Positions 8,001 to 31,574 of a stretch of 64,000 bases of DNA are shown here, in pieces; position 1 is the stretch's first letter; every line of letters starts with the position of its first letter. Under the pieces are notes generated by a model. The model did no database searches. It was not told the origin of the DNA and worked only from the letters and a program-made list of their open reading frames with translations. Origin of the DNA: Verrucomicrobiia bacterium (GTDB lineage: Bacteria > Verrucomicrobiota > Verrucomicrobiia > Verrucomicrobiales > DEV007); contig JAUIAH010000014.1 of the NCBI GenBank assembly GCA_030425385.1, positions 62,001 to 126,000 of the forward strand. Direction: 5' to 3'. A program made the position numbers and the translations under genes.

Positions 8001-9892
8001 GCACCGGGAATGATCTTCTCGATGATGGCGGTGACTTGGCGCTGATTTCAGGGCAAGTGCGCAATGACACGGATGGCGATGGTGATCCCGGAGACAGCGA
8101 CGCCCCTGTCAGTGGCGTCACGATCACGCTTTACACAGACCCGAACGGCGACGGCGACCCAAGCGATGGCCAAGTTCTTGGATCCACCACCACCTTGGGC
8201 GACGGCACCTATGCATTCGATAACCTTGTGGCTGGAGACTATGTTGTCGTCGAATCCGATCCGGTGGGGGCCACGAGCACCTATGATATCGAGGGGAATA
8301 GCACCGACAACGCCATCGCAGTTGCCCTGAGCGGCACGGACAGCACAGGCAATGACTTCCTCGATACGGTTCCAAAGCCCAACACTTGGGCAGACTACCT
8401 CTCTGAGAATGGTCTCAGTGGAGACGACGCCCTCCCCCAGCCCACCGGCGCGCTTCCCGAGGCAGGCAATCCTGACAAAGACATCTACGATAATTTGTTA
8501 GAATACGCCTTCTGCCTCGATCCCAATGATCCCATCCCGGCGTTCCCTCCGTTCTGTGCGGAAGTGAACACCTCGGGCGATCCCGATACCTTCGAAGCCG
8601 TTTTCTACCGTCCCGCGGGCGGTCTCACTGACGTCACCTACTGTCTGGAAGGACGCACGACCCTCCCCACCACGGGCGACACCACGTGGGTTCAGCTCAC
8701 CGTGGTGCCTGGCTCGGGGGTTCCCGGTGCGGGTGTCACCGTCACGGACCTTGGCAATGGTTTGGAAGAGGTGCGCATCGCCGACATCACAGCGGTCGCC
8801 ACCACTGGCGATACCTTGTTAGGCTTTGAAGATGCCGGAGCCCGTGGCTTTATCAGGCTCACCGTCAAGCTCGACACCGACGGGGGCGGCACTGATTTCA
8901 CCTCGCACACCCAGGTGCAAGGGTGGAAGCAAACGGACTGTGGACAGAACCAGTGCGCCTCGTTCAGTCACCCTTGGTTGCAGAAGGAAGCGTTCTCCGG
9001 TGCCGTGGCGAGTGTGTCAGGACAAGAGCTGACGATGACAGGCACGCCTGACCTTTCGAATGTTCTTGTGCCAGGATCCAGCTACTACTTAGAGATTCTT
9101 AGTGGTGACAATGAAGGGCATCGCTTCGATGTTGTCAGTACCAATGCTAGTGGTGTCATCACCCTCGCCATCGACACGGATCTCTGCGCGGGGCCACCCT
9201 TTAACACCAGCACGACACTCCCAGCGACTTTGGCAGAGGATCGCTTTGTCGTTCGCGCTCATCAAACGGTGGAAGGCCTTTTCCCAGCAGCAGCGCTCAC
9301 GCCGGAAGCCGATCCTGGCCTCGCCGATCGCCTCCTCATCTACGAAGGCGGCGCCATTCCCTGGAAGGTCCTTTACGTCGATGATCCCGCCGAATGGAAG
9401 AATGAGAGCTCAGGGACCAGTGCTAGTGACGACGTCTTGGCACCCCATCAAGGCTATTTCATTCACCCCAAACTAGGCACGCTCACCGTCCTCGGAATGG
9501 GCGTGGTGCGCGCCAATGACTTCCATTGTCCCTTGGGTGATGGCTATCGCATGGTGGCTGGAGGCTTTCCTATCGACACGTCCTTCACGGATCGCGGCCT
9601 GGATGACACGGTCAACCAAGTCACCGGCACGCTTGATCCGGCCACAGCGGATCAAGTGCACATCTGGGACGGCGATGGCAGCGTCTACAGTGAGTCCTTC
9701 ACTGGACACTTCCGCTTGGAAGGCAGCATCCCGAGCCTCCCGCCCTTCGCGCAGTGGAGCAATGTCGAAGACGTCAATCTTGATGACACCTCCGATGAGA
9801 AGGTCTTCAAGGCGGACCGCTCCGTCTTCTACTACCGCCTCGCAACGGGTTGTGACGCCGCCCACCAGCAACCCCTTCCTTGGACACCCTAA
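2084..9892 (+). CDS. Giant secreted repeat protein 1, SdrD-B-like units and TIGR02597-like C-terminus
   Basis: A 2602-aa exported protein. The ATG at 2084 gives a long signal peptide that loosely resembles that of the second giant; an internal ATG at 2168 also gives a good signal (MRNLLLWASLLFG...VQA). Residues to about 395 form an N-terminal domain with an EGLYFDNDSNNYYLAIVTS stretch. About 14 SdrD-B/Cna-B-like units follow (396-2095), each with a V/I-x-D-x-x-x-D start, a PGVTVTLFTDP strand, DGNGAYLFADLPPGDYVV and a TGNDFLDD end. These Asp-rich beta-sandwiches usually act as calcium-binding spacers in adhesins. Residues 2100-2602 are a Cys-containing module that opens with an 'NLLEYAFCLDPNDP' signature and continues with a region resembling TIGR02597 proteins of Verrucomicrobium. 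No C-terminal anchor is visible. A PEP-CTERM gene follows 23 bases later. Confidence 0.85.
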   Translation: MVLTKPLPIHLVRLATQACRSSRFSGFKMRNLLLWASLLFGVSWASTVQAQGPGTMLFDRFGVDLDLGPFNASAGPGATGGFPFDWTSFEPDPSQAPRFSAGAIDWTEADWFGAWLNDFTETTIQHAPAPGTPDQDWNPSGGEPYEVEGLYFDNDSNNYYLAIVTSIPLLVENDTTDPTPTSDYGVVDPRDFGSAGFGAAIRSGDLSISFFDGTARSERNSTEWHYNYGVDLTQENRDSYGTFAGLAVPNMRSLAVGTGLYETSADPGGSQIDGPSGASGDWYTSAAPPTGGSGASGATQGNWEHTNFDPLASGHVLSKLGDVTVNYYEYDFGGDEENGYPTYVYEITIPRSLFGVNDKGHGEQIGFRMTPGCRNDGNGAGDGTISLIAAVDDLEVGDFVFNDRNGNGVYEPLLGEAGINDVDVQLFPSGTPTSGTPIATTTTATLSGSPGRYLFGSLPSGDYYIHIPATEFQLGGTLEGLISSTTTEVDPDDDENEDGTGGNGAGSGASTVGGTGDENGIDDALAATNGISTGVFTLSGGDEPTGEDVASIQQTALDTNSNLSVDLGFLEELGAISGSVLADTDNDDAGEVGIANVTLTLTDAAGDPIDADGNAGNGIQPITAVTDGNGDYTFTNLPPGDYGVAETQPTGYDDVSDGDSTDPTDDAANADPLDDFIPVSIDAGETDTGNDFIEEQPGAISGSVLADTDNDDAGEVGIANVTLTLTDVAGDPIDADGNAGNGIQPITAVTDGNGDYAFTNLSPGDYGVAETQPTGYDDVSDGDSTGPTDDAANADPLDDFIPVSIDAGETDTGNDFIEEEYSSIGDLVWADLDGDGLFEPGDGEFGISNVTLELYLDVNSDGSFTEGTDTLAGSAVTDASGVYTFSDLGAGDYIVTITDDNNALIGYTATYDENDATTNPDGETDVALIAGDDHVTADFGFEPTLAGIYGTVYDDHDVSNDNAINSNEDAPLGGVEISLFTDPNGDGDPSDGVLVGVTYTDLSGDYAFNDVLPGNYVVVETDPSGFASDTDTAGANDNRVPVALAGIDSTGNDFLDDGGTLYNLSGSVYVDTSKDDSLNGSGEDPLGGVSVTLYADANGDGLADASDTVLGTATTLPDGSYRFEGLVPGDYVVVETDPTGASSDDDVQGAPTDNTVAATITNADSTGNDFLDDNVIPASIAGAVYNDTADDNALNGAGETPIPGVTVTLFTDPDGNGDPSDGVALATTVTDGNGAYLFADLAPGDYVVAETDPSGFTSDADTAGANDNQIPVALASGVDSTGNDFLDDGTVYAISGTVYDDDDATNNDAIGAEDAPMGGVSVALWADTDGNGSPDTLLASTVTAADGTYHFADLPPGDYVVVETDPSGFTSDADTAGANDNQIPLTLVNADSTGNDFLDDGGSLNAIGGIVYNDTADDDTLNGTGETPIVGVTVTLFADVDGDGEHTPGTDVAIASTVTGADGSYLFQDLPDGDYVVVETDPATAVSDDDADGSGANDTNTVAVALAGADDLDNHFLDDLLTGSIAGSSLEDTASDDTLNGTGEAPIAGVTMSLLTDPNGDGDPSDGTVLATTVTDTNGAYLFSNVAPGDYVVVETQPSGFPTSDDDTSTLIADGTDDWVDVSLAAGEDATGNDFLNDGGTLYALSGSVFVDTGNDDSLNGSGEDPLGGVSITLYADANGDGLADAGDTDLGTATTLPDGSYRFEGLVPGDYVVVETDPTGASSDDDVQGAPTDNTVAATITNADSTGNDFLDDNVIPASIAGAVYNDTADDNALNGAGETPIPGVTVTLFTDPDGNGDPSDGVALATTVTDGNGAYLFADLAPGDYVVAETDPSGFTSDADTAGANDNQIPVALASGVDSTGNDFLDDGTVYAISGTVYDDDDATNNDAIGAEDAPMGGVSVALWADTDGNGSPDTLLASTVTAADGTYHFADLPPGDYVVVETDPSGFTSDADTAGANDNQIPLTLVNTDSTGNDLLDDGGDLALISGQVRNDTDGDGDPGDSDAPVSGVTITLYTDPNGDGDPSDGQVLGSTTTLGDGTYAFDNLVAGDYVVVESDPVGATSTYDIEGNSTDNAIAVALSGTDSTGNDFLDTVPKPNTWADYLSENGLSGDDALPQPTGALPEAGNPDKDIYDNLLEYAFCLDPNDPIPAFPPFCAEVNTSGDPDTFEAVFYRPAGGLTDVTYCLEGRTTLPTTGDTTWVQLTVVPGSGVPGAGVTVTDLGNGLEEVRIADITAVATTGDTLLGFEDAGARGFIRLTVKLDTDGGGTDFTSHTQVQGWKQTDCGQNQCASFSHPWLQKEAFSGAVASVSGQELTMTGTPDLSNVLVPGSSYYLEILSGDNEGHRFDVVSTNASGVITLAIDTDLCAGPPFNTSTTLPATLAEDRFVVRAHQTVEGLFPAAALTPEADPGLADRLLIYEGGAIPWKVLYVDDPAEWKNESSGTSASDDVLAPHQGYFIHPKLGTLTVLGMGVVRANDFHCPLGDGYRMVAGGFPIDTSFTDRGLDDTVNQVTGTLDPATADQVHIWDGDGSVYSESFTGHFRLEGSIPSLPPFAQWSNVEDVNLDDTSDEKVFKADRSVFYYRLATGCDAAHQQPLPWTP
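3803..4546 (+). repeat. Tandem 372-bp repeat inside giant gene 1 (two copies)
   Basis: Copy 1 (3803-4174) and copy 2 (4175-4546) encode the same 124-aa SdrD-B-like unit starting GAISGSVLADTDNDD, with only a few substitutions (for example DAAGD/DVAGD, DSTDP/DSTGP). The unit length is a multiple of three, so the frame is kept. This is a recent in-frame tandem duplication. Confidence 0.9.
5460..6250 (+). repeat. Long exact direct repeat, copy A (791 bp)
   Basis: By eye this stretch is identical, base for base, to 7203-7993, 1743 bases (581 codons) downstream. The first mismatch on the left is C5459 against T7202; on the right, identity ends after gtgaac at 6250. Similarity continues more weakly to about 5270 on the left. 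It encodes the end of one SdrD-B-like unit, two whole units and most of the connection to the next. Confidence 0.9.
7203..7993 (+). repeat. Long exact direct repeat, copy B (791 bp)
   Basis: Second copy of 5460-6250, in the same frame. The flanking units differ (the unit before it starts YALSGSVFVDTGND, the one before copy A YNLSGSVYVDTSKD). The two copies enclose about three unrelated units, so deletion or expansion by recombination between them would remain in frame. Confidence 0.9.
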
Positions 9893-10667
9893 CTTAGCCC
9901 CCACCCACAGACACGGTGATCAACCTCCAGCTTTTGATCTTTGCCATCTTCATGATCCTCATCGGCATGAGCAAGGCCGTCACGATTCACTGGGGAAGTG
10001 CCGTCGGCGATTTCGTCTATGAGAGCGATGGGGTCACTCTCGTTGATCCCTCTGAGTACACCTTTGCGCTAGGCACTTTTGCCGATGGATTCACCCCCGA
10101 CGAGACCAACATGGCCGATTGGGAAGCCAATTGGCACACCCTCGATGTGGGCGGCTACAGTTCGACCACCGGACGGTATGCTGGTAGCGTCACCCTCCTA
10201 AACACCCCAGACGCCGATGGCACCATCCTTGATGGCAATGCCAGTGGTGGAGACACGGCCGCCACCTTCTTTGGCAAGGATGCCTACGTCTGGATCTACA
10301 ATCAGAACACGACGCTCGATAGTTCCATCGAGTGGGCGTTGCTCTCCAATCCCACCGGCGGCGGGGACCCGGAATCAGCCTGGACTTTCCCCTCGGCAGC
10401 GGAGTCTGGTGCCCACACCGAAGTGGTGGAAATGAACCTGTCCGATGACGGCGTCACCGCCAACTTCGGTGAAGAAACGGGGGGAAGTAGCACGACCTCC
10501 GGGAGTGGCCAATTCACGCAACGGCCGTCCACACCTTATGGCATCCAGACCTACACCATTCCAGAACCATCCAGCACCGCGTTGGTGCTGGCCGGCATAG
10601 GACTTCTGATAGGGCGACGGCAGCGCTCCGCGAGAAAAGCCTAGCTTTCGAAGCTTACGCTGACGAG
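8381..10667 (+). repeat. 3' cassette module, copy 1
   Basis: This block covers the last 503 codons of giant gene 1, the PEP-CTERM gene after it and 23 bases past its stop (ctagctttcgaagcttacg...). It matches 29281-31574. The giant-protein part has exactly the same length in both copies (1512 bases including stop) without indels. Differences look like roughly 7-10% of bases. The 23-base spacer between the two genes does not match the spacer in the other copy. Confidence 0.85.
9916..10644 (+). CDS. PEP-CTERM exported protein, partner of giant 1
   Basis: A 242-aa protein with a short N-terminal signal segment (INLQLLIFAIFMILIGMSKA) and a classic PEP-CTERM tail: PEPSS at about residues 216-220, a hydrophobic stretch (TALVLAGIGLLI) and a basic end (GRRQRSARKA). 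This tail is recognised by exosortase/PEP-CTERM sorting systems, which process surface proteins in bacteria with exopolysaccharide. The body is beta-rich and unrecognised (WGSAVGDFVYESDG, WIYNQNTTLDSSIEW). The GTG start at 9916 is chosen because the paralog at 30826 has ATG at the matching position and the same following sequence. It lies 23 bases after giant gene 1 and is probably co-transcribed with it. Function unknown; an anchoring role is inference. Confidence 0.88.
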   Translation: MINLQLLIFAIFMILIGMSKAVTIHWGSAVGDFVYESDGVTLVDPSEYTFALGTFADGFTPDETNMADWEANWHTLDVGGYSSTTGRYAGSVTLLNTPDADGTILDGNASGGDTAATFFGKDAYVWIYNQNTTLDSSIEWALLSNPTGGGDPESAWTFPSAAESGAHTEVVEMNLSDDGVTANFGEETGGSSTTSGSGQFTQRPSTPYGIQTYTIPEPSSTALVLAGIGLLIGRRQRSARKA

Positions 10668-10863: not shown

Positions 10864-13800
10864 ATGGCAATTCGCTTATTCACACACTTCACGAATCTTC
10901 GGCTTGGACACGCATCCTCGATTCGTAGATTTCCTTCGCTAAACATTCTCTCTTTCATCTGCTGGGCACTTCTCCTGGTCCTGTCCTGCAGCGCCCAGGC
11001 CGCGCCGGAGGTTGATAACAATCTCGGGACTTGGACGGATTCGCTGAACGATGAACTTGGGACGCTCAGTTTGAACAATGTGTCCAACGACCCCTTTGCG
11101 GGCACGGCCTCGTTGGACTCGGGGCAGGCGAGCGGGTCGCAGACGACAGTGGTGATCTCGCCGCCGTCGTTCGATGGGTGGGAGAAGGTCTGCATCGACG
11201 CGAGCTATGGCGCGGTGGCGGATCTCGATGTGACGCTGCTCGACCCGAACAACGGCGACGCGCCGATTGCGGGTTTCGTGGACATGGATATGTCGAACCT
11301 CGACGCGGAGGGCTGCATCGACATCAGCGCACTAGATGTGGCGAGTTTTCCGGAGATCCGTGTACGCGTAGACCACACCCGAGGGGCTACTGCACCGACG
11401 GTTCGCGAGCTCAAGGTGACCTGGAACCCGCAGACCGTGCTCCTTTTTGATAAGAAGACACTTGAGACGATCCCGGCGGGCGTGCAGTTCCCGTATCAGG
11501 TGCGGCTGTCGGCGAACTTCGTCAACGCGCAGAACGTGATCGTGTGGGACACGCTGCCGATGAACGGCCGTGGCATCACTTACCCGACCGACTACGGCCA
11601 GGCGGACGAGCCGATCATCGGCCAGATCTCCGATGGCGGGATCTTCACCGCAGATGGCCTTACGGATGCGGCGACCGGCGACCCGCTGCCTTCGTTCCCG
11701 GATGGCATGACCGAGTTTCCTGAGGACACGGTGGTGTGGTATTTCGATGAGATCGAGGCCGGCAACTCGCTGGTTCTACAGCTGTTTGTGGAGGCTCCCA
11801 ACGGCACCCTGAACGGTACGGTCTACGAGAACAACGCCAACGTCCACGTCGACAACGGCGAGGACAAAGTCGCGCCGCCAGTGGAGACGATCATCACCTC
11901 TGAGCCGAAGCCGAACCTGACCAAGGCCGGCGCCACGCTGGCGTCGCCCGGCGTGACCCGAGTGTTCGGGCTCGGTGGCGAGAACTACGTCATCGCGCGC
12001 AACAGCCCGGCTGCAAGCGACACGCTGACCTTCCGCATCCGTGACCCCTTCGGGCCGGTCGATGGCAATGACTACGATGAGGAGAACCGCTCGCGGATGT
12101 ACAATACCGTGATCTACGATGACCTCTCCGGCCTCGTCGACCCGAACGGCGACGGCGACACCAGCGATTCGTATTTGCTCAACCCGACGAACCCGGCGCA
12201 CACGATCTCGGCGACGAAGTTCAACGCCGATGGCACGACGACGACGATCCCGGCGACCTTCACCGCGACGGCGATCACGGTGCATACCACCGATGTCCCC
12301 GCACAGAGCGTCTACTGGGACTTCGGCACGCTGGAGGTGGGCGACGGCTACCAGATCGAGTTCAAAGTCGATCTCGCTAGTGATATCCCGCAGCTCACCG
12401 AGTTCACCAACACCGCGGGCTTGGACTCCGACCAGACGGAGCTTCTCACTGACTCGTTGCCCATGATCGTCGATGTGCCGATCGGCGGTTGCTTCTGCAA
12501 GTTCGGCTACTTCCCGCACTACCTTCCGAAGGAGCAGGACGTCCCCTGCGGCCTCGACATCGATGGCGTCGTGCCCGTGGTCGCTGGCGACCCCGTCCAG
12601 TACCGGCTCTACAACACGAACTGCGGTGTGATCGAGCTGAACGATATCGTCTACTTCGACCGCATCCCGGCCGATGTCGACTTCGTCTCCGCAGCGCTGC
12701 ATAACCGTCAGACAAAGGAAGACATCACCGCCGCGGAGGGTGCGACCGTGTGGTACTATACTGGTGCGGGCTTCGCCGATCCCGAGGTGCATCCGCCCTT
12801 CGACTGGAGCGTCCTGCCCGGTGGTTCACCCGCTGACTGGAGCACGACCCGTCCGGCGACCGTGACCTGGGTGGCCGTGCACCACCCGTCGATGCCCTCG
12901 TTCATCGATTTCCCGAACGACCCCGGTTCGCGCGTGTTCGCGGCCTTCAACACGACCGTCAAAACCCCCGCCGACCCGTGCGCCGAGTTCTGGATCGAGA
13001 ACTGGGGCTTGGTCGATGTTTACCGCAAGACCGACGGCACGCTGCAGACGCTTGCCGATCCATTCGAGTACAAGAACGACGACCTCACCCGCGTGCGTCC
13101 GCCGCAGGGCGAGTTCTTTGTCGACTCCGATAGCGCCAGCGTCACGCCCGTGACCGTGATCCCCGGTGTTGCGGATTACTCGCTCACCGTTCGCAATGAG
13201 TCTGCCGAGTCCGGGCTGGTCGGCCTGGAGTCGTTCACCGATGTCGAAGTCGAGCTGCAGCTCACCCAGGTCAACGTCAACGGCGTGCCGACCTATCCGT
13301 CGATCCAGGGCGTCAGCGGGGGCATCATCACCGATTTCGACCCGGTCAATGGCACCGTCACCCTGCAGCTCGGGCGTCAGCTCGCGCCGGGCGAAGAGTC
13401 CACCATCGACATGGAACTCGGCTTCCCCAACGGCACCGAGAACCTCTCCACCTACACCGTCTCCGCGAACCTCACCGGCTTCGATGACCTTTGTTCCCCC
13501 TTCGAGGCCACGATCCAAACCTCGGGCGTCGTCTCCGGCACGCCGCTCTTACAAACCAACAAAGACGACGTGCTCAACGTCATCGGCAGCGGTGACGACG
13601 TCACCTACGAGGTGAACTACCGCAACGTCGGCACCGCGACTTCGGTCAATACTTGGGTGGCCGACCGGATCCCGTTCCGCACCACCTTCTCCAGCGCGAC
13701 CGCACCCAACGGCGAGGAGGTCTGGTTCACCGACAAGCTCCCGCCGTCGATGCCCGCCAACCAGATCAGCGTGCTCGACCCGATCGATTTCAGCGTCATC

Positions 13801-16800
13801 AGCGCGAATTTCTCGCCCGGCATCCACGACGACAACGGCACGCCAGGCAACTTCAGCGACGACACCTGGACGAGCCCCTTTGGCGACCAGACGACCTGGA
13901 TCGCTTACAAAGTCGACAACCCCAGCCTTTCGCCGCCGCAGCTGGAGGTCTCGCCGAACTACAGCACCGTGACCTTCACCGTCACCAATGACGACGACGG
14001 CACCGGTGCGGGAACCGCCGGTTCGCCGGAAGGCACCGTCCTCTTCAACGAGCTGGTCATCTTCTCCGACACGAACCTGCAGGCGGTGGGCAACGAGGTG
14101 CGCACGACCATCGAGGCATTCCCCGGACTCCAAATCAGCAAGACGAGTAACAAAGACCTCGTCACCGCGACCGAGAGCTTCCGCTGGCACGTCGATTACA
14201 TCAACAATTCGGGCTTCACCGACGACGTCGTCACCATCACCGACACCCTGCCGAAGGATGTGACGCTGAAGCGCGTCCTGCACGAGTGGAACGATGCAGC
14301 GGTGGGCAATGGTCAACCCGCTGGCGAGATCAACATCACCAGCGACCCGAACGTGACCATCACGAACAACGCCGATGGCACGACGACCGTAGAGATTCTC
14401 ATCGCGGGTTCGCCAGCCATGAAGTCGGACTTGCTCACGGGCGAGGGCGGTCGCCTGGTCTTCCGCGTGGCGCCGCTCTCCAGCACCGCGTCCGGCACAG
14501 AGACGATCAACGAGGTGCGCGGCTTCGCCTCGAACCCGCGCTCGTCCGTGGTGGTGAGCGACAGCGACCCAGTCACCATCGCAAACCCTGACCTGACTGT
14601 GAGCAAGATCGTTAGCAACGCCGAGCCGCAGAACGGCGATCGATTGACCTTTACCCTGCTCGTCGCCAACCGCGGCCTCAATAGCGCGTCCGATGTGACG
14701 ATCACGGACACCTTGCCAGCAGGCATGACCTTTGTCGAAGGCAGCACGCAGATGCTCACGCCGGGCTACAGCATCGCCGACGACCCGAGCGGCGGCGACT
14801 CCACGCTCGTGTGGACGTCATTGACGCAGGATGGCGGCGCGGCGGGCGAGTTGCCCGGCCAGTCGGTCGATGTCTACATTAGCTATCAGGTGGACGTTGC
14901 CGGCACGGCGGGTGATGCCTTGACCAACACGGCTGAGGTGAGCACCAGCGACCCGGAAGATCCGGCCTACCCGAACACCGACGAGCAGGAGGTCGTCCTG
15001 CCCTTCCCCGATCCGAAGATCGCGAAGTCCGCCGCCAGCGTTTCGCAAGCCGGCGAGACGGTGATGTGGACGATCACTTATAGTAATGCCGCGAATAACT
15101 CCGCACCGGACGTTTATATCATCGATACCATCCCGGCCGGCTTGACCTTTGAAACCGTCGTCCTGCCCTCGGGTGTCACCGCCTACTACACGGATGCGGG
15201 TGCGGCGCCGACCTTCACGCCGGGCACATCGGGCGCGGGTTGGAGTAGCACACCTCCCGCTGGCGTGACGTTTATCGCGTTTGAAATCGGCACCCTGCCC
15301 GCGAATCAGGGCGACACGAAGATCCTCGTCGGCACCTCGATCCCGGCCGCCGCCCCTCCCGGATCCAGCTATACGAACAGCGCCACCATCGCCACCAGCG
15401 CGACCGAGAATGACGATCCGGAGGATCCCACGGACGGAGCGGAGAACAATGCCGCCAGCGCCACGACGAAGATCCCCGGCGTGGACATGGCCGTGGCCAA
15501 GAGCGCCAGCGTGGAGGGCAGCGTGCCCGGTTTGCGCCCCGGCGACCCGATCACCTACACCATCGAGGTCACCAACACCGGCACGGAGACCGCCTACGGC
15601 GTGAAGGTGGAAGACACCCTCCCGGCGAACTTTGACCCACACCCGACGGCTTTCAACGGCTTTGCCACCGTCGAGGTCTTCGACGACCAAGGCGCGGCCA
15701 TGAACCTCGAGGACACCGGCGGCGCTCCGATCACGGTTCCGATAAGTGCCACCTTGGACAATGCCTCGCCGAGCGGCGGCGACACCGTTACCTGGCATCT
15801 CGGCACCACTGCCAATGACGCTGATCCGGACTACTACCGCAATGTCGGCGTCCCCGTGGGCGGCATCGTCACCTTCACCTTCCAGGGGTATGTCAATGCC
15901 GCTGCTGCCGATGGCGACGACGTCTTCAATAGCACGACCCTGATCGTCGACAACCAGGAGGACAGCGACCCGGCGGAGGAATTCCTCGCCAACAATACCG
16001 ACGATGTATCGACAAAGATCTACCGCCCCGAGGTCTCAGTCGGCAAGAGTGTGGTCAACGACTCCGACGGCGACGAGACTTGGACGGAAGCGGGTGAGAC
16101 GCTGACCTATACCATCGAGTACAACAACACCGGCAACGCCGATGCCGACGACGTGGTCATTTCTGAAATCATCCCGGCGGGCACCAGCTATGTGCCAGGT
16201 TCCCTGCAGCTTCCCGCTGGCGCGGGTGTAGTTTGGAGCCCGAATGCGGCCGATCCGGAGAGCTTCGAGGTGCAGTTTGAGAACCTCCCCGCCCCGGCGA
16301 CCTTTGACGGCAACCCCGGCTACGGCACGGGCACGGAGAACGATCCGTTCACCGACTTGCTCGCACTGGGGGGCGTGCCTACCGGCACCTACTGGTTCCG
16401 CATCGGCGGTCTCAGCTTCCAGGGCTACGTCGACGGCGAGACCGAAGGCGGCGGCTGGTTGATGATCCTCAACTATGTGCACGAGGGCGGCACGAACCCG
16501 GAGCTCGACGTGCGCACGACCGACTTGCCATTGCTGAACTCCGACACGCTCGGCGATGACGAGAGCGGCAGCGAGAGCTGGGGGCACGCAGGCAATGCCA
16601 TGGCCGCGCTGCTGGACTTCGACACCATGTACTTCCACGGCCGCACCAGTGGCCACACGCGGATCATGAACATCCGCACCACGGCCTTCTACGAGCGCGG
16701 CACCAGCTACGTGCAGACCGGCACGGGCAGCTTCAACAACATGCACTTCGATGGCAACTGGATCGCTGTCCCGGGGCACACCGCGACCATCCCGGCGACC

Positions 16801-19800
16801 GCGACCGGCGAGCAATCGGACAATGGCGACTTCGCCCTAACAGAGTTCCCGTTCTACGAGGGGAACACTGCCTATTGGGCGATCCGCGCGGGCGGCAACC
16901 GCTGGGAACTCGATGACTTCCCGGATGATGAGAGCAACGACACCATCCACCGGGTCTTCGTAAGGAAAGAGCCGATCGGCTCGGCAGGCGCAGTGCTCTG
17001 TCTTGAGCCGCCACGCAAGGTGGAGGTCGAGTCGTTCTTGTCGGAGATCAGCGCGCTCGACGCCGGCTACGACCAGCACGTGGCCTTCGACTTCGATGGG
17101 GACAATGATCCAGCCACCGACGACCCGCTGCACACGCGTTCTCAGCAAGTGACCTACCATGCGATCGGCGACCTGAACGGGGACGACATCATCGACTACG
17201 CGGCGGGATCTCCTTACCGCGATCTCGACGAGGCGAACGAGACCGACCTCGTGAACGTCAACTTCGGTGCCGTCCTCATCCATTTGATGAATGCCGACGG
17301 CACCATCGGAACTATCGTCGAACTCGCACAGGGCTCGACTGCTGCCAACGGCTTGCTGGCTGACATTGAAGCCAACGATCTGTTCGGCTACGCGCTCGAG
17401 CCGATTGGAGATGCGGACGGCGATGGCGTTCCAGACCTCGCAGTGGGCGCCCACGGCAACAATGAGCTGGGCGGTGGCGCAGCTCGCGGCGCGGTCTATC
17501 TGCTCTTCCTCAACAGCGATGGCACGTTGAAGGACTCGAAGAAGATCGAGTCCGGTGTCGCTGGCCTGGTGACCGCAAATGGACTGACGGCCGCCGATGA
17601 CCAGAACTCTGCGGGCATCGGGCGTGGCTTGGCTTATATCGAAGACTTCGCGGGAACGGGCAACTCCGTGCTCGTCGCGGGAGATGCCAGCCTGGACGGT
17701 AATGTCATCAATGGTGGCGGCTACTATTTCCTATTCCTCGAGCGCGATGGCAGCGGCCATCTCACCGGGAACGTGACCTCGTTCATCAAGATGCAATCGG
17801 ATCGCGACGCGCTCCTGACGCCGTTTCTCGACGAATCCGATCTCTTTGGCCACGACCTCGATTTCATCGGTGACATCGACGGCAACGGTGCGGAAGACCT
17901 CGTTGTTGGCGCGCCTGCTGACGACGAGGGTGACATCAACGAGGGCTCCGTCTACATTGTCCTGCTCGAAACCACCGGCGAACTCAAGGCGGTGAACAAG
18001 ATTTCGCCGCTCACGAGCCCGGCCTTGCCGCTGGATCCTTCGGACGACCTCGGCTATGGCGTCGCCGCAGTCGGAGACCTCGATGGAGACGGGCTCTCCG
18101 AGATCGCCGCTTCGGCCGCCAACGATGACGACAGCTCGCTGTCGAACGGCAACGGCAGCAACCGCGGCGCGACCTACATCATCTACCCGAACGCCGACGG
18201 CACCATGCGCGAATACTGCAAGCTCAGCCCGATCGAGGGCAACGGCTACCTCTTCCGCCAAGGGCAAAACGGCGGCCAGCGCATGAACGCTTACGACCTC
18301 GATGGCGACGGCATCCAGGAGCTCTTCTACGGCAGCCAGATCAACATCGGTGCCACCTACAACGCCCCTGGTGGCGGTACTCAAACGACGAACCCGACCT
18401 ACGCCTATGACGGCATGGGTGGTGCGACCCCGACCTTTGCCGCGAGCGTGACGTCTGGGTCGGATTCCGGTTGGCCCGGCGTCGTCGTGGCCAAACTCAA
18501 TTCCGGCAGCGGCGTTTACGAGACTTCGGTAAGCGAAGACTTCCCGGTCAGCGTGGACGGCACCTTGACCAGCTGGGATAAGTTGCTCGTCAATGTCGAA
18601 ACCGACGACGCGGTGACCGTCACCTTCGAGCTACGCGATTCCGGCGACACGACCAGCCTGTTCGGCCCCGTCGAGCTGGAGGACGGCTTCGCGGACATCT
18701 CGTCGATCGCCACCTCGAACACCGACATGATCCTGCGCGTCACCATGACCAGCACGGACGAAACCGCGACCGCTTGCCTTAAGAGCTGGCGCGCCACTTA
18801 CCTCGTCGAAGAGGTTCCCAGCTTCACCTTCCAAGTCACCGTCGACGATCCCGCACCCGCCGGGCAGAGCACGGTGGACAACACCGTGAGCATCGCCACT
18901 TCGACTCCGGAGATCGATGACAACACGGCCAACAACATCGCCGCTGACAGCATCAATATCCGCCTCACCGATCTGCTGGTCAGCAAGTCCGTCGATAAGG
19001 GAGCGGTCAAGGAGACTGACGGCGAGACCATCAGCTACACGGTATCCTGGGAGGTGCTGGGGCCGCAGGGCGCGATCAACGCCGAGGTCACCGACATCCT
19101 CCCGGCGTCAACCAGTTATGTCACGGCGGACGGAGCCCCGGCGGTGGACAGCGACTATCAGGGCAGCGGCTTGACGGCCCTGGTTTGGAGCCTTGGTGAC
19201 CAAAGTGTCGGCGCGTCCGGAAGTTTCACCGTCACGGTGACGGAGAGCGGGGCGGCCGCGGGCGACAGCTTGACCAACGTGGTCAGCATCAGCAACGACC
19301 GCCAGGAGACCGATTACACCAACAATGACGACAGCGCCATCACCGTGGTGACTGGTGCCGCGGGCTTGGCGAACGTCTGGATCGAAAAGGATACGACCAC
19401 CCCGGTGGTCGACCTTTACGGCGGGGGCTCGTTCACCATCAACTACGGCAACAACGGCAACGGTGACGCCACCAACGTCGTCATCAGCGACACGCTGCCG
19501 GACGGATTGACCTTTGTCAGCGCGACCCCCGGCACCGCTGCCGGCAACGGTTTCACCTACAATGCGGGCACGCTCGCACCGGGTGCGACAGGCTCGATCA
19601 CCGTCGCATTCAACGTCGACCAGACCTACATGACCGCGAACTGGGGCGAGACCCAGGTCAATATCGCGAGCATCGCCACCGATTCCCCGGAGACCGACCT
19701 CTCCGACAACAGCGACCCGGCGGAGGTCGATGTCATCCTCGAGCAGCTCGCCAGCCTCAGCGGGAAGGTCTATCACGATGATGACCGCACCGATGGCGAC

Positions 19801-22800
19801 GCCGGTGCCGACAACCTCGGCAATCTCGATCTCGGTGAAGCCGGCATCCCGGGCGTGACCATCACGCTCACCGGCACCGACATTTTCGGCAATCCGGTCA
19901 ATTTGACCACTGTCACCGACGAGAACGGCGACTACTCCTTCGCTGGCATCAACCCTGGAACCTACGACGTGACCGAGACCCAGCCGACTGGTTGGCTCTC
20001 GACCAGCACCGACCAGGGCGACATCATCGACACCACGGTTTCGCCCAGCGGCACCACCGCCGACCAGGGCACCGCGGGCAGCGACACCATCACCGGCATC
20101 ACGCTTGCGGGCGGCGAGCGCGGGGTGGACTTCAACTTCGGCGAAGACCTCGCCACCCTCGGCGACACCGTCTGGATCGATGGCGACGGCGACGGCGTGC
20201 AGGACTCGGGCGAGGCGGGCGTCCCCGGTGTGACTGTTAGGGTCTATACCGCCGCGGGTGAACTCGCGGGCACCACCACCACCGACATTAACGGCAACTA
20301 CCTCTTCGACGACCTGCTCGCGGGCGACTACTACGTCGAGTTCGACCTCGACACCCTGCCCTTCGGCCACAGCGCCACGGAACAGGACGCGGGCGGAGAC
20401 GACACGGCCGACAGCGACGCCGACCCGGTCACCGGGCGCACCCAGACCGTCACGCTCGCGGCCGGCGCGACCGACCTCGACCTCGATCTCGGCATCGTCG
20501 GGCCGCCTGTGGGCAGCATCGGCAACTACGTGTGGTTCGATGAAGACTCCAACGGCTACCAGGACGACGGCGAGCGCGGCATCGCTAACGTCATCGTGCA
20601 GCTCAAAGACGCGGACGGCAACGTCGTCGCCACCACCGTGACCGACGCCGATGGCGGCTACCTCTTCACCGGCCTGGAGGCCGGGCAGTACCATGTCGAC
20701 ATCGACGAGACCAGCCTGCCCGCAGGCATGACGCAGAGCCCGCTGACCAACGCGGGCGGCGACTTCGGCAACCAGGATCACAGCACCGGCTTCGGCTACC
20801 CCGTCACCCTCGGCGGCACCGAGCCGTTGGACAACACCACCGCGGACTTCGGCTACAACGTCAACCCGGCGGGCGACGTCAACAACCCGAGCGGCTCACC
20901 CGTTGCCGCCCTCGGCGACTATGTCTGGATCGATAGCGACGGCGACGGCGTGCAAGACCCCGGTGAAACGCCGGTCGCGGGCGCAGAGCTCACGCTCTAC
21001 AGCGACCACGATGGCGACGGCGTCTACGACAACGTCGTCGGCACCGCCACCACAGACGCCACCGGCCACTACATGTTTGACGGCCTCACGCCTGACGCCT
21101 ATGTCGTCGCCGTGACCGACAGCAGCTCGGCCAGCCACGACATCCTCGGCGCCGACTACAGCGCCACCGGCGACCCCGACCACTTCGGCACCAGCGGTGC
21201 CAGCGACAATATCAGCACGCCCATCGTGCTCGCCCCTGGTGACGTAATCCTCAACGGCGACTTCGGCTACCAGCCGAAAGGATCTGCCCCGGTTGGCAGC
21301 ATCGGTGACACTGTCTGGCTCGATCTTGACGGTGACGGCTCCGAGGACGCAGGTGAACCCGGCGTTCCTGGTGTCAGTGTTAGCCTAATCGACGACCTCG
21401 ACGGCAACGGCGAGTGGGATCCCGGCGAGCCGGTCATCAGCACGACGACCACCGCCTCCGACGGCAGCTACCTCTTCGATGATCTGCCCTACGGCGACTA
21501 CATCGTCTGGGTCAACGACAGCGACGGTGCGCTCGCAGGCACCACCCAGACCTACGACAGCGACGGCACCGCGCTCACCCCCAACCAGAGCGCGACTACC
21601 ATCGACGCCGGATCGCCAGACGACACCGACCAGGACTTCGGCTACACGCCGGGCGCACCGCTCGGCAGTATCGGCGACACCGTCTGGGGTGACCTCGACT
21701 CCAGCGGAGGCGACCAGTCGACCCAGAGCAACGAGCCCGGTCTCGCAGGTGTCACGGTCAACCTCTACGCCAGCGATGGCACGACATTGATCGCCACCAC
21801 CGTCACCGACAGCAACGGCGACTACCTCTTCGACGGCCTCGCTTTCGATGATTACGTGGTCGAGGTGGACACCGCCACGCTGCCCGCCGGCTACTCGGCG
21901 ACACCTACCTTTGACAGCGACGGCGATGGCGGCGCAGGCTTCGACAACACCAGCGCGGTCACCCTAACATCCGCACAGCCGGACAACCGCACGCAGGACT
22001 TCAGCTTCCCGCCGGACGGCACCCGCGGTGCCATCGGCGACACGATTTGGGCGGACGATGACAGCGACGGCACGCAGAACGGCGGCGAACAGGGCATCCC
22101 CGGTGTCACCGTGGAGCTCTGGACGCAGGGCGGAACGAAACCTCCGAAACTGATCGCGACGACGGTCACCGACGGCAACGGCGAGTATCTCTTCGACGGC
22201 CTGCCCTTCCGCGATTACGTGATCAAAGTCGATACGGACACCCTGCCCGCGGGCTACGACCCGGCACCGAGCGGTGACCCTGAGAGCGACGGCGACAACG
22301 ACAGCAACGTCACCATCAGCGCCGGCACGCCGACCGACCTCGATCAGGACTTCGGCTACCCACCGAGCGACACGCCAGTCGGCAGCATCGGCGACACCAT
22401 CTACGCTGACCTTGACAGCGACGGCACGCAGGGCAGCGACGAGCCCGGCATCCCCGGCGTCACCGTCACCCTAACCGATGACCAAGGCAACAGCTGGACG
22501 ACCGTCACGGACGAGAACGGCAACTACAACTTCCCCGGCCTCGATCCCGACCCGACGGTGACCTACACCGTCACGGTCGACGCCTCGACCTTGCCGCCGG
22601 AGTTCGACACCACCCCGACCGACGACCCCGAGGACGACGGCGACGTCACCTCCACGGTCAACCTCGACGTCACCGACCCGTCGACACGCAACAACGACGC
22701 GCAGGACTTCGGCTTTGCCCCCGCCACCGAGTTTGGCAGCATCGGCGACTACGTGTGGCTCGATAGCGACGGGGCAGGCGACCAGAACGAAACCGGCACC

Positions 22801-25800
22801 GGCATCCCCGGCGTGCTCGTGGAACTCTACGACGAGAACGGTGAACTCATCGCGACCACAACCACCGGCACCGACGGCGGCTACCTCTTCGGCGGCTTAC
22901 CGCTCGACGACGGCACCGGCGCGCCCGGCGCGGACTACACCGTCAAGGTAGCCGACAGCAACTTCGACCCCGGCGGCGCGCTCCAGGACATGGACAACAC
23001 CGCTGACAGCGATGCCGACAACGACAGCGAAGGCGAGCTCGTCACCCTGACCGGAGCGGCGCCAGTCGACCTCGACCAGGATTTCGGCTACGTCAGCGCT
23101 GACGACGGCTCCATCGGCACCACCGTGTGGAACGACATCGACAACGACGGCATCCTCGATCCCGGCGAGAGCGGCATCGAAGGCGTCACGGTAGCCCTTT
23201 ACCGCGACACCGACGGCGACGGCATCGTCGACCCCGGCGAACCGCAAGTCGGCACCACCACGACTGACGGCAGTGGCGAATACCTCTTCGACGGCCTGCC
23301 CTTCGATGACTACATCGTCGTCGTCACCGACGAGGACAGCGTCCTCGACGGCACGTGGCACAGCGTCGGCCCGAACCCCGGCACCGACGGCAACAGCCAG
23401 GAGGACAGCGGCTACCCGGTCACCATCAATAGCGGCAATCCCGATGACGACACCGCCGACTTCGGCTACTACGTCGACCCCGCCGCCGTGGGCAACTACG
23501 TCTGGTTCGACACCGATGCCGACGGTGTGCAAGACGCGGGCGAGCCCGGCATCGAAGGCGCGGTGGTCACGATGACTATCACCTACCCAGACGGCACCGA
23601 GATTGAGCTCGTCGATGTGACCGACGCCACTGGCCACTACGACTTCGGCAACCTGCTGCTAGACGAGGACTACAACACCGGCGGAGGCGGCGCCCAGCCG
23701 ACCTACGAGCTGACCGTGCAGACGCCGGTCGACACCGAACCCACCGTCATCAACTCCGGCGACGCCACCGCGCTCACCGACAGCAACGACCCGGCTGGCA
23801 CCCTCGCCATCCCGATCCAGGGCAGTAACAACACCGCGCTCGCCAGCACCGACTCAACGGCCAGCTACGACTTCGGCTTCACCAGTACTCTCGTGGCGCT
23901 CGGTTCGACGATCTGGCTCGAAGACGGCATCCCGAACGGCACCTTCGACGCTGGTGAGGGCGAGGCGGGTGTCCCAGTCGAGCTCTACTTCGCCGGACAG
24001 ACCCCAGGTGTTGACACCCCGGTCGCAGCCACCATCACGGCTGCGGACGGAGCCTACCTCTTCGACAACCTGCAGCCGGGCGACTATTTCATCTACATCC
24101 CGGCCAGTGCGTTCAACGGCGGCCCGCTCACGGGCACCAGTTCGATCCATGGCGGCTCGGTCGACGACAACATCGACGGAGACGACGACGGGCTCGATAC
24201 CCCGGAGAACGGCGGCTACCGCAGCAACGTGGTCAACCTCGACACCGGCGCCGAAGTGACTGGCGAGCCGAGCCAGGTCGACTATACCGGCATCCTCCTC
24301 GATGACTCAGTCAACATGACCGTCGACCTTGGCTTTACCCCGGTGATCGGGGAGGTGGCGATCGGAAGCACGATCTGGATCGACGGCTCCGGTAGTGGCA
24401 ATGCTGACGGCAGCTTCGATGATCCCTCAGAGGGCATCGGCGGCGTCGCTGTCGAGCTCTACGAGACGGGTCAGACACCCGGCGTCGACCCGCCGTTGCG
24501 CGTCACCACGACCGGCCCGAACGGCGACTACTACTTCGACGAGCTGCCGGAGGGCGACTACATCGTCCATGTCCCGGCCGACGAGTTCGCCAATGGCCCG
24601 TTGGCGGGCACGACCTCGATCGGAGGCGCCGGTGGCGACGACGGGACGGACAACGACGACAACGGTCTCGACACCCCGGTCAACGGCGGCATCAGCAGCG
24701 CGCCGATCACCCTCAGCGCAGGGGACGAGCCGACCACCGGTGACGACGACAGCGACTACAGCGGGGTCCTTTCCGACGACGCCGTGGATAGCACGGTTGA
24801 CTTCGGTTTCCAAGCCGCTACGGGCGAAGTCGCTTTGGGCAGTCGCATCTGGACCGATGACGACCAGAATGGAGTCTTCGACGTCGGAGAAGGAGCGGAT
24901 GGCGTTCCCGTGCAACTCTACTCGGACCCGAACGGCGATGGTGACTTTGGTGATGGCGTCCTGGTTGCCACGACGGCGACTTCCGCAGACGGTCGCTACC
25001 TCTTCGATCAGCTGCCGTCAGGCAACTATGTGGTCCACATCCCGGCAGATGCGTTCGCCTACGGTCCTCTCGCCAGTGCCACCTCATTGACGGGCGTCGA
25101 CGGAAGCGACCTCGATGAAGAGGCCGCAGGCAATGACAACGGCACAGATACGCCCGTAAACGGTGGGACTAGCAGTGGACCCATCTCCCTTTCAGTCGGC
25201 GGCGAACCTCAGGCGGAGAGCAGTCAGAGTGACTACGGCGGAACACTGCCCGATCATTCGGTCAACATGACGATCGACTTTGGCTTCGATCCCGCTGAGC
25301 CCGATCCTGCCATTGGTAATGCTGTCTTCTTCGACGACGATGGCGACGGCGTCATGGATCCTGGCGAAGGTGTGAACGGTGTGGTCGTGGAACTCTACAC
25401 CACAGATCAGGAGCCGGGCGTGGACTCGCCTTTCAGAAGAACAACTACGACGGCCGATGGCAACTACCTCTTCGACCTGTTGCCTGAAGACGACTACCTG
25501 GTCTACATCCCTGCCGAGAATTTCGCTCCGGGATCTCCCTTGTATCAAACTGAATCTCTGCCTGGCGCGGGCGGCGACGACACCAACGATGACGATGTGG
25601 ACGAGAATGGCCTCGACCAACTGCTTAACGGTGGTGTTGTCAGTGCGGTCATTATCATCCGTGACGGCGGCGAGCCCATTAATGAGAGTGGTTCCTCCAC
25701 GGGACCCACCTCGGTGTTGGCAGATGATCGCGTGAATTTCACGGTCGACTTTGGTTTCCAGCAGCAACCACCGCTCGGCGCAATTGGCAACTATGTGTGG

Positions 25801-28800
25801 GTCGATGAGAACAGCGATGGCCTCCAGGATGCTGGCGAGCCAGGCATCGCCAATGTTCTCGTCCAGTTGAAGGACCAGGATGGCAACGTAATCGCCACCA
25901 CCCTCACAGATAACCAGGGTGGCTACCTCTTTAATGCGCTGCCCGGCGGCGATTACTTCATCGACATTGACGAGAGCAGCCTTCCGACTGGCATGTCGCA
26001 AACGACTCCTGGACTCACCCCAGGCACCGACTTTGGCAATCAGGATCACAGCGGTGATGGTTATGCGGTGACGGTTGGCGGCGAGGAGCCTTGGGAAAAC
26101 ACGACGGGTGACTTTGGCTACAACTACAACCCTGACACAGATGTCAATGACGGAACTAACACAGCCGCGCTGGGTGACCGATTGTGGATCGATAGCGATG
26201 GTGATGGCATCCAGGACCCTGACGAAATCGGCGTAAAGGGGGCTGAGGTCACCTTAATCGCCGCTGGCCCCGACGGTCTGTTCGGGACAGGTGATGATGA
26301 CACAAGCATCACCACGACGACCGATGCGAATGGCAATTATTTCTTCGATGGGCTAGCGCCTGGCGCCTATCAGGTGGAAGTCACTGATAGTAATTCCGCT
26401 AGTCACAACATTCTTTCAACGGACGACTACGCTCAGACAGGGGATCCCGATCACTTTGCCGAGACGGATCCTGCGCCCTCTGCCAATGATCATCTTACAA
26501 CAACTCCCGTGGTGCTTGGTCCTGGCGATGTATTCCTCCAGGCTGACTTCGGCTACCGCCCAATCAAGGCAGGTGATCTCGGATCAATTGGCGACACCGT
26601 CTGGATGGACGCGGATGGCGATGGGGTCTTAGACGTTGATGAATCTGGCATTCCCGGAGTCACCGTCGCCTTGATCCAAGACATCAACGAGAACGGTGTC
26701 TTTGACGCTGGCGATCTGATCATTGCCAGCGACACCACTGATGAGAATGGCAACTATCTCTTCGACGATCTCCCGGTCGACGACGGTGATGGCGATGCGG
26801 ACTACCTGGTCTGGGTGAACGACACCGACAACGTGCTTTCTGGCACCATTCAGACCTACGACAGCAATGGGGCGTTGAGCAGTCCAAATGTCAGTGCGGT
26901 AGCGCTCACAGCGGCTAGTCCTGACAATAACACACAGGACTTCGGCTACACGCCTGGCACCCCTCCAGGGAGCATCGGCGACTACGTTTGGCTCGATGCT
27001 GACAGCGACGGCATTCAGGATGAGCCAGCGGCTGGCTTGGGCAAGGTCGTCATGGAATTGCTCGATGCCACTGGAACCGTAGTGGCGACGGCAACAACCA
27101 GTAGCGACGGTTACTACCTCTTCGAAGGCCTCCCGGTAGACGACAACACGGGTGCTGCAGGTGCAGACTATACAGTACGCGTAGCCAGCGAGAACTTCGA
27201 TCCAGGCGGTACCCTTGAGGGTTACACCAACACGTCGGATCCTGACAGTGGCACGACATCGCCTGACAACAGCGGCACCGCTATCACGCTCACGGCGGCG
27301 GCGCCACACAACCGCGTTCAGGACTTTGGGTATGTCACGACGGCGCTCGGCAGCATCGGCGACACCGTCTGGTTCGACGCTGACGACAGCGGCACCGCGA
27401 CCCAGGACCCCAGTGAGCCCGGCATCCCCTGTGTCCTCGTCAGCCTGTATGCGGACACCGACGGCGACGGGATCTTCGAACCAGGCACCGACGACATGCT
27501 CATCGGCCAGCAATACACCGACAGCCAGGGCAACTACCTGTTCACCGACCTTCCGCTCGACGTGACCTACTTTACCGAGGTCGACACCGACAGCCTGCCC
27601 GGCTTCGTCGACCCGGCAAGTAGCTACGAGGAAACCGGCGGCGGCGAGACCACCGCGGGCAACAACGTCAGCGACGCCACGCCCACCGCGGTCAGCCCGC
27701 ACGTCACCGACCAGGATTTCAGCTACGCGCCCTTCCCTGCAGCCACTGAACTTGGTTTCATTGGTGACCATGTATGGTTCGACGCCGATAGCAGCGGCGG
27801 CGACCAGTCGACCGCAAGCGGCGAGAGCGGCTTGCAAGGAGTTGTGGTCATTCTGAAAGACCACACCGGCACTGAGATCGCACGCACGACGACCGATAGC
27901 AGCGGCTACTACGTCTTCCTTGGCCTGCCTTTAGACGATGGCACAGGAGCCCCGGGAGCCGATTATACGGTCGAGGTGCTCACAAGCACCCTGACGCACA
28001 ATGTCAGCCGCACATCGACCCATGACGGGAGTGATGGTGGGAGTGATAGCACCTCCGTGACGACATTGACGGCAGGTGCTCCAGTAGATCTCGATCAAGA
28101 CTTTAGTTACCCGCCAGCGACGGCGCTTGGCAGCATTGGTGACTATGTATGGCTCGACAGCGACGGAGCGGGAGATCAGAACGAGACCGGCACGGGCATC
28201 GAAGGCGTGATCGTCGAACTGCTAGACACCAACGGCAACGTGGTCGTCAGCACCGAGACCGACGAGAATGGCTACTACCTGTTCCCCGGCCTGCCGCTCA
28301 ACGAGACTTACCAGGTGCAGGTCGCGCCCGAGAATTTCGCCCCCGGCGCGGTGCTCGAAGGCATGACGAACACCTTTGATAGTGATTCGCCAGGCGATAG
28401 CGTGGGCGCGGACGTCACCCTGACGAGCGGCAGCTCTACTGACCTCGGCCAGGACTTTGGCTATGTCGGCGCGGGCAGCGGCTCGATCGGTACCACGGTG
28501 TGGAACGACATTGATGCCGACGGCATGCTAGAAGCAGGCGAGCCCGGCATACCAGGCGTCACGGTCGCCCTCTACCGCGACCTGGATGGCAACGGCCAAC
28601 TTGATCCAGGCGAGCCCCTCATCGGCACGACCACGACCGACGGCAATGGCGATTATCTCTTCGAGGGCCTGCCTTTCGATGACTACATCGTCGATGTCAC
28701 TGATGAAGACGGTGTGTTAGGCGGATTCTGGCATAGCGACGGGCCGAATGACGGCAGCGACGGCAACAGTCAGAATGATGCTTACGCAGTCACTATCAAT

Positions 28801-30792: not shown

Positions 30793-31574
30793 CAATCACC
30801 CTCAAACTCCACAGCGTTACCACCCATGAACCTTCAATTCCTGATCTTCGCCATTCTCATGATCCTCATCGGCATGAGCAAGGCCGTCACGATTCACTGG
30901 GGAAGTGCCGTCGGCGATTTCCTCTATGAAAGTGACGGCGTCACTCTCGTTGATCCGTCTGAATACACCTTTGCGCTTGGCACCTTTGCCGATGGGTTCA
31001 CCCCAGACGAGACCAACATGACTGACTGGGAAGCCAACTGGCACACCCTGGACGTGGGCGGCTACAGCTCAACGACCGGACGATATGCTGGCAGTGTGAC
31101 CCTCCTGAACACTCCGGACGCCGATGGCACCATCCTTGATGGCAATGCCAGTGGTGGCGACACGGCTGCCACCTTCTTTGGCAAGGATGCCTTCGTGTGG
31201 ATCTACAATCAGAACACGACGGTCGATAGCTCTATCGAGTGGACACTCCTTTCCAATCCCACCGGCGGTGGAGACCCCAACTCGGCCTGGACCTTCCCCT
31301 CGGCAGCGGCATCCGGTGCCCACACCGAGGTGGTGGAAATGAACCTGTCCGATGATGGCGTCACCGCCAGCTTCGGTGAAGAAACGGGGGGAAGTAGCAC
31401 CACCACCGGAGATGGCCAATTCTCACAAACGCCGACCAATCCGTATGGCATCCAGACCTACACCATCCCAGAGCCATCCAGCACCGCCTTACTCCTAGCA
31501 GGCCTAGGACTTCTGATAGGGCGACGGCAGCGCTCCGCGAGAAAGGGCTAGCTTTCGAAGCTTACGCTGACGAG
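29281..31574 (+). repeat. 3' cassette module, copy 2
   Basis: This is the counterpart of 8381-10667: the last 503 codons of giant gene 2, its PEP-CTERM partner and the short conserved tail past the stop. Amino-acid identity in the giant C-terminus is about 90% by eye, with conserved cysteines and no gaps. The intergenic spacer is longer here (33 against 23 bases) and unrelated in sequence. Confidence 0.85.
30826..31551 (+). CDS. PEP-CTERM exported protein, partner of giant 2
   Basis: A 241-aa paralog of the gene at 9916, about 90% identical along its whole length. It has the same signal segment (NLQFLIFAILMILIGMSKA), the same body motifs (SAVGDFLYESDGVTLVDP, FGKDAFVWIYNQN) and a PEP-CTERM tail made of PEPSS, a hydrophobic run (TALLLAGLGLLI) and GRRQRSARKG. 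An ATG start at 30826 replaces the GTG of copy 1. It follows the second giant by 33 bases, probably in one transcript. Its body matches no domain that I recognise. The constant pairing with a giant that lacks an anchor suggests that the two act together at the cell surface. Confidence 0.88.
   Translation: MNLQFLIFAILMILIGMSKAVTIHWGSAVGDFLYESDGVTLVDPSEYTFALGTFADGFTPDETNMTDWEANWHTLDVGGYSSTTGRYAGSVTLLNTPDADGTILDGNASGGDTAATFFGKDAFVWIYNQNTTVDSSIEWTLLSNPTGGGDPNSAWTFPSAAASGAHTEVVEMNLSDDGVTASFGEETGGSSTTTGDGQFSQTPTNPYGIQTYTIPEPSSTALLLAGLGLLIGRRQRSARKG

Follow-up and report, generated by a model that had tools for sequence, protein, structure and literature searches.

Can a single repeat of a stalk protein be interrupted by several hundred residues and still be completed as one domain? 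The question is raised by a gene in a 64,000-nucleotide stretch of a Verrucomicrobiia bacterium genome (contig JAUIAH010000014.1, positions 62,001 to 126,000), which is referred to here as the window. The gene is a continuous open reading frame (10864..30792, + strand) for a giant protein of 6642 residues, along which an N-terminal beta domain is followed by 12 DUF11-like repeats with boundaries set by hand, an SdrD_B-like stalk (24 Pfam stretches) and a C-terminal domain. Judged by profile matches, the tenth DUF11 repeat is a split domain with an 840-residue insert, called the cargo below. We consider it probable that this repeat is a split host domain carrying the cargo in a giant fibrillar surface protein and serving as a putative slot for heads.

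A DUF11 repeat in two halves

A first-pass annotation of the window had described a DUF11 repeat that starts normally and then breaks off. This was borne out by the first half of repeat 10 (residues 1721-1811, 16024..16296, + strand), where before the insert only positions 10-51 or 10-52 of the 114 of Pfam DUF11 are matched, along with positions 8-61 of a profile of our own with a length of 154. The missing second half, which the annotation had placed after the insert, was indeed found there, at residues 2652-2702 (18817..18969, + strand), with matches to positions 78-113 of Pfam DUF11 and to positions 107-151 of our own profile, whose match in the uncut window unit covered 99-151; 50 residues of this part taken by themselves gave E 0.015 and 16.0 bits, which is under the curated cut-off of 24.6. 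The insert between the halves (residues 1812-2651, + strand) is in frame within the continuous reading frame, in agreement with the roughly 840 residues claimed to be inserted without loss of frame.

When the two halves of the window protein were joined without the insert, a single Pfam DUF11 match over positions 10-113 of 114 was obtained with 47.3 bits (cut-off 24.6), whereas the first half with its natural continuation gave 31.8 bits at positions 10-52. The scan of joined halves also covered two of the three relatives that carry the same split, i.e. L005, from a genome collection, and G194, from the same order; the third relative, G139, likewise from the same order, was left out. For L005 the joined halves scored 44.5 bits (14-113), as compared with 26.3 bits (14-53) for the natural continuation, and for G194 the joined halves scored 35.3 bits (1-112). 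By this measure repeat 10 is a split DUF11 domain, which belongs to PF01345 with its halves joined.

Our own profile was built from 22 intact repeats of the four proteins, repeat 10 being excluded. Repeats 6-9, 11 and 12 were used, both for this profile and for the residue counts given below; repeats 1-5 were too divergent to be delimited, and the G194 contig ends before repeats 11 and 12. In the uncut units of all four proteins the profile gave an N-terminal match before the insert and a C-terminal match after it, with two weak additional matches in G139 (independent E values 0.5 and 2.6). The first half alone scored 47.7, and with the true second half added 59.9, a value that none of 500 shuffled second halves reached. 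When segments of the protein itself were placed behind the first half, 192 of 1319 scored at least 59.9; all of them lay within the DUF11 region or overlapped the second half, and none started at 1766-2631 or after 2931. The best scores of segments from the cargo and from beyond residue 2961 were 53.2 and 52.4, respectively. Since the DUF11 region is the source on which the profile was trained, the shuffled sequences are the cleaner of the two controls.

By our reading of the alignments, the chain leaves repeat 10 between the strands FEVQFENLPAP and PSFTFQVTVDDP, at a place occupied by a short turn in intact repeats; in other DUF11 repeats of the giant protein this stretch holds loops that are long and variable. 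Nesting of the cargo in one repeat is supported by the Pfam matches with and without the insert, by the second profile and by the three relatives, two of which have other cargo.

Relatives with the same split point

In G139, L005 and G194 the repeat is split at the same point (G338 has the same sequence as L005 and was counted once). The first half is 92 residues long in all four proteins and the second half 51, 51, 51 and 49 residues (window, G139, L005 and G194). Counted without the beta domain at its end, which has 86-97 residues, the cargo is 753, 747, 265 and 1031 residues long in the same order. The G139 cargo is of the window type, with a GGGW domain and FG-GAP repeats, and that of G194 has 14 FG-GAP stretches (Pfam PF01839, 281.7 bits). 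The L005 cargo has neither the GGGW nor the FG-GAP motif; it is tentatively labeled LamG-like, as a score of 14.4 bits with Laminin_G_3 (PF13385, cut-off 27.6) is too low for membership, and neither NCBIfam nor a PDB profile search gave a match. In each of the four, the last part of the cargo is a beta domain that is related to the one at the N terminus of the protein. By these motifs and profiles, the four proteins share one split point and hold three cargo types.

Identities of the first and second half to the window were 88 and 86% for G139, 75 and 88% for L005, and 49 and 63% for G194. The corresponding values were 65, 26 and 29% for the cargo (the latter two by forced alignment), 77, 34 and 27% for the beta domain, and 71-78, 55-70 and 35-46% for the intact repeats as aligned by BLAST. 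Both half-domains are thus better conserved than the cargo in all three comparisons and, because their identities exceed those of the intact repeats, the split repeat is by alignment the best conserved of the repeats compared. Around their unlike heads, the L005 and window proteins are 63% identical upstream and 66% downstream. On this measure the host repeat is strongly constrained as its cargo changes, and the differing modules found at one place in the relatives suggest a standard slot for the exchange of putative binding heads.

Judging by the hits, few of the genomes searched have a member of the family. Among 386 genomes of the order, 4 were matched by a profile covering the beta domain and the second half, and among 377 of the phylum, 2 (G000, the genome of the window, and G139 again); a search with the N-terminal part found the same genomes, with 4 of 386 (order) and 2 of 387. 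The N-terminal part (window 11458-12588, compared with L008, G139:C13) is 91% identical between G000 of family f1 and G139 of family f2, and only 64% identical between the window and G338, though G338 belongs to the family of G139. The giant gene may have been transferred horizontally, or the binning may be at fault. In G194 there are two copies of the N-terminal part (L032 and L033, G194:C404 and C493), and the second contig stops before the slot.

Domains of the cargo

The cargo of the window protein begins with a GGGW domain (16303..16998, + strand), 69% identical to that of G139, which the first-pass annotation had called fibrinogen-like. The GGGW motif itself is clear. A family match was not obtained, as NF040941 (GGGWT_bact), with a cut-off of 30, gave 17.6 bits (15.9 bits with the G139 domain), and PF00147 (Fibrinogen_C) gave E 0.086 in a long piece and no match for the GGGW domain alone; the fibrinogen-like label is weak and is used tentatively. 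A PDB profile search with this domain listed 7ue2 (RPB_PLP3_R6) at E 9.5e-7 over 44 residues, which was judged spurious, and two weak matches besides.

The second part (16999..18387, + strand) consists of FG-GAP repeats, resembling an integrin-alpha-like propeller. Its score of 50.7 bits with PF01839 (cut-off 22.1) places it in the family, and its sequence match in the PDB was integrin alpha-V (E 3.6e-7). Of the six FG-GAP units proposed earlier, the FG-GAP identity is thereby confirmed; the number six was obtained by eye, whereas Pfam delimited three stretches and a loose motif four. The third part, a beta-sandwich domain leading back to the stalk (18511..18816, start approximate, + strand), had also been noted in front of the second half, and was found with all three cargo types. 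Compared by hhalign, it matched the N-terminal beta domain (11011..11439, ends approximate, + strand) with probability 88.6 and E 2.6e-6, and DUF11 with E 0.25. Profile comparison thus relates it to the N-terminal domain and not detectably to DUF11.

Because the guanine-plus-cytosine content of the cargo, overall and at third codon positions, did not depart from that of the flanks, the composition gives no sign of a recent foreign origin. No relative of the cargo was found in the viral contigs searched, and none of the GGGW domain in the plasmids searched.

Candidate isopeptide residues

DUF11, recently renamed CLIPPER following the crystal structure 9IFR, is described as the most broadly distributed isopeptide domain in the part of PMC12617251 drawn on here. 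In 9IFR a Lys715-Asn806 isopeptide bond was reported, with Asp748 as presumed catalyst (alignment count gives 749 if the Lys is 715, and we take the two to be one residue), and the bond is stated to confer heat and protease resistance (PMC12617251). No PDB entry other than 9IFR matched the profiles of intact repeats with E below 0.01.

Lys, Asp and Asn were found together in 22 of the 22 intact repeats examined, which are orthologues and not independent. In the split repeat, Lys1728 (16045..16047, + strand) and Glu1768 (16165..16167, + strand) lie before the insert and Asn2673 (18880..18882, + strand) after it. Lys1728, which was located by motif since the window row of the alignment begins after it, aligns with the first-strand Lys of 9IFR. 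The putative bond-forming Lys and Asn are kept in 4/4 split repeats and are separated by 945, 939, 468 and 1230 residues in the window, G139, L005 and G194 proteins. Taking strand placement from the alignment to intact repeats, the Lys is in the first strand and the Asn in the penultimate strand, as in CnaA-like isopeptide domains. At the place of the catalytic Asp, Glu is present in 4/4 split repeats. As this Asp is absent and the bond putative, the split repeat is not classed as a proven isopeptide domain. The Glu may nevertheless work there, because Glu is the catalyst in CnaB-like folds (PMC12617251, in the part used). The Asp-to-Glu change at the catalyst column (4/4 split repeats, 0/22 intact ones) is a possible search tag for split DUF11 domains.

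Structure prediction and alternative explanations

Structure prediction of the two halves, as proposed in the first-pass annotation, gave a mixed outcome at low confidence: the L005 model is compatible with one domain, and the window model lends no support. The AlphaFold2 input alignments contained the window and L005 sequences only. When the L005 model was compared with the PDB, 35 of the 50 rows listed ran from the first half (model residues 1-6) to the second half (471-489), with 82-111 residues aligned, and the remaining 15 were matches of the beta domain. The DUF11 crystal structure 9IFR is among the 35 (Z 7.3, 104 residues aligned of 123). By part, the predicted local distance difference test (pLDDT) of this model was 56-79 in the first half, which has five strands, 81-90 over most of the beta domain and about 30-43 in the second half. 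The L005 model is compatible with halves packing as one immunoglobulin (Ig)-like domain with most of the cargo skipped, and structure prediction as a whole agrees with nesting without establishing it.

A number of observations weigh against a single domain with a nested head. Mean pLDDT was 48 for the L005 unit and 40 for the window unit, where the second half reached 34-49, and the cargo stayed mostly below 45 in both models. The structure rows give the first and last aligned residue only, with the inner aligned residues not visible, and the spanning L005 rows, all with Z below 8, could mean merely a common Ig-like arrangement. With the window model, all 50 rows listed started in the beta domain (residue 832 or later) and none joined the halves; five continued from the beta domain into the second half, to model residues 971-985. 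Only four proteins carry the split, and the repeats counted in them are non-independent orthologues. An uninterrupted repeat 10 was not encountered, though no search aimed at it was made. Given the Glu in place of the catalytic Asp of CnaA-like domains in 4/4 split repeats, the Lys-Asn bond may be absent from the split repeat, and retention of Lys and Asn in G194 is not strong evidence alone, its halves being 49 and 63% identical to those of the window.

The low model confidence of the 51-residue tail, and the window rows, of which 0/50 join the flanks and 5/50 extend from the beta domain to the tail, would also fit a reading in which the flanks are separate domains, i.e. a shortened DUF11 that remains stable although its final strands are lacking, and the beta domain together with the tail as a second domain. 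We think this very unlikely. Two profiles align the tail with the C-terminal part of DUF11 that the first half lacks; between L005 and the window, identity is 88% in the tail and 34% in the beta domain; and the beta domain, not detectably DUF11-related (hhalign E 0.25), folds confidently without the tail. The second flank of 51 residues has no confident fold of its own in either low-confidence model. An assembly chimera might be suspected in draft assemblies (74 contigs for G000), and its probability is negligible, as the frame is nowhere interrupted and the split recurs in four separate assemblies.

If the insertion is real, the cargo might still be a spacer or a structural decoration rather than a binding head. 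It has no known ligand, the GGGW and LamG-like assignments are under the curated cut-offs, and FG-GAP propellers also occur in non-adhesive proteins. Three cargo types in one slot, each resembling adhesion or glycan-binding families, argue against this, as do the split hosts of RTX adhesins, which carry ligand-binding domains according to the part of PMC12077191 considered, and we regard a spacer as unlikely. The diversity of the cargo raises a different doubt, namely that it arose by ancient independent insertions into a permissive loop, or by gradual divergence, with no exchange of heads. The long, variable loops of other DUF11 repeats at the same stretch would suit such a history, and so would the FG-GAP repeats shared by G194 and the window and the beta domain common to all four proteins. 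The comparison of L005 with the window speaks for exchange, as 63% identity upstream, 75 and 88% in the halves and 66% downstream surround heads of unlike type. A history with no exchange appears somewhat unlikely to us.

Proposed model

In the preferred reading, that of a split host domain with a nested head, about five strands of repeat 10 would be made first, and the chain would exit via the turn between FEVQFENLPAP and PSFTFQVTVDD. The 840-residue cargo, consisting of the GGGW domain, the FG-GAP propeller and the beta domain, would then be built, after which the chain would return to add the last strands and the halves could fold together. From the types of domain present we infer that the cargo may be a ligand-binding head that projects sideways from the stalk. 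Heads may have been exchanged between lineages by recombination, with the host domain retained. An isopeptide bond between Lys1728 and Asn2673 would span the insert and close the cargo, with 945 residues between the two, into a loop; tension on the stalk might then go through the bond, from the first strand directly to the penultimate one, and leave the head unloaded. The full form of the model, a covalently stapled standard slot made of an Asp-to-Glu-marked DUF11 repeat with a Lys-Asn bond, whose swappable heads of about 360-1120 residues are bypassed by force and exchanged by recombination, is offered as a tentative possibility.

Genomic context

The giant protein starts with a signal-like segment (by eye), and its C-terminal part gave no Pfam match at E 0.001. 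Directly upstream of its gene lies a gene for a small PEP-CTERM protein (9916..10644, + strand; TIGR02595 over cut-off). In G139 and L005/G338, too, the giant gene is immediately preceded by a PEP-CTERM gene, with TIGR02595 over cut-off in the window, G139 and L005; in G194, no same-strand open reading frame of at least 100 residues was present within the approximately 580 bases upstream that were examined. Exosortase genes were found in all four genomes. The PEP-CTERM neighbor and the exosortase genes suggest that the giant protein acts on the cell surface or within the matrix, and say nothing of how it would be retained there. The resemblance of the PEP-CTERM proteins encoded upstream at L008 (1190-1945) and L034 (6064-6837) to the window copy is only about 27 and 34%.

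The window contains two tandem units (2084-10644 and 10864-31551), in both of which a PEP-CTERM gene comes after a giant SdrD_B-type gene. Identity between the two units is 92% for the PEP-CTERM proteins, 90% for the last 362 residues of the giants and 87% for a 2.3-kb DNA block (approximately 8375-10667 and 29275-31574). The neighboring giant (2084-9892) appears by eye to have two near-identical internal blocks, as from a recent duplication; its self-BLAST listed the full-length self match alone.

Comparison with known systems

Split domains of RTX adhesins are reportedly dealt with by Graham et al. 2024 (Proteins). In AhLap, FrhA and MpIBP such domains project binding domains from the stalk, as described in the parts of PMC12077191 and PMC10865825 that were used. 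The giant protein resembles these adhesins in that an Ig-like stalk domain is interrupted by an off-axis, here putative, binding domain and is completed afterwards, a correspondence seen at the level of sequence only. It differs in that the host is DUF11/CLIPPER, the gene follows a PEP-CTERM gene and the Lys/Asn pair spans the insert. In comparison with AhLap, whose domains are 17 and 28 kDa in the part of the literature used, the cargo is larger, with 840 residues, and differs between relatives. No RTX family was among the Pfam matches for 10864-15699, 15700-19100, 18970-19368, 19747-29679 and 29680-30789 (19369-19746 was left out), and because RTX repeats are absent from the parts scanned the giant protein is not classed as an RTX adhesin.

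A putative isopeptide-type fold with a large insert between candidate bond-forming residues recalls Gram-positive pilins and pilus adhesins such as RrgA, the GBS104-like protein (3TXA) and Spy0125, and both CnaA and CnaB folds tolerate inserted domains (PMC12617251, in the part drawn on). In 3TXA, the host domain comprises 137-211 and 587-717 and the residues Lys188, Asp597 and Asn692 surround an insert, which lies between Lys188 and Asp597 (PMC12617251); here the insert is between Glu1768 and Asn2673. By analogy, an isopeptide bond across an insert would thus have a precedent, with a different position of the insert relative to the acid. Unlike in the Gram-positive pilins, the host here is DUF11, in a 6642-residue protein. 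9IFR, from B9T28_05395 of Acinetobacter silvestris (PMC12617251), belongs to the same family and has the corresponding Lys and Asn; it is uninterrupted and has Asp, whereas the split repeat has Glu and the 840-residue insert. The part of PMC12617251 considered holds no mention of insertions in DUF11 itself. Among the matches listed from the open-access literature, no title or start of an abstract described an insertion in a DUF11 domain; PMC9957290 and PMC2605481, in the parts used, name DUF11 and FG-GAP with other proteins. To integrin alpha propellers the cargo is similar by its FG-GAP repeats and the alpha-V match (E 3.6e-7), with the difference that the protein is bacterial and its FG-GAP repeats are nested in a stalk domain.

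Two questions become testable with this locus: whether a split DUF11 points in general to a binding head in a giant surface protein, and whether an isopeptide bond can be formed across 840 inserted residues and shield the head from force. The four proteins provide a natural series in which one host domain is combined with three cargo types. Split domains were known from RTX adhesins and Gram-positive pilins; what is new is a split DUF11 with differing cargo, by which the split-domain rule of the RTX adhesins is extended to DUF11.

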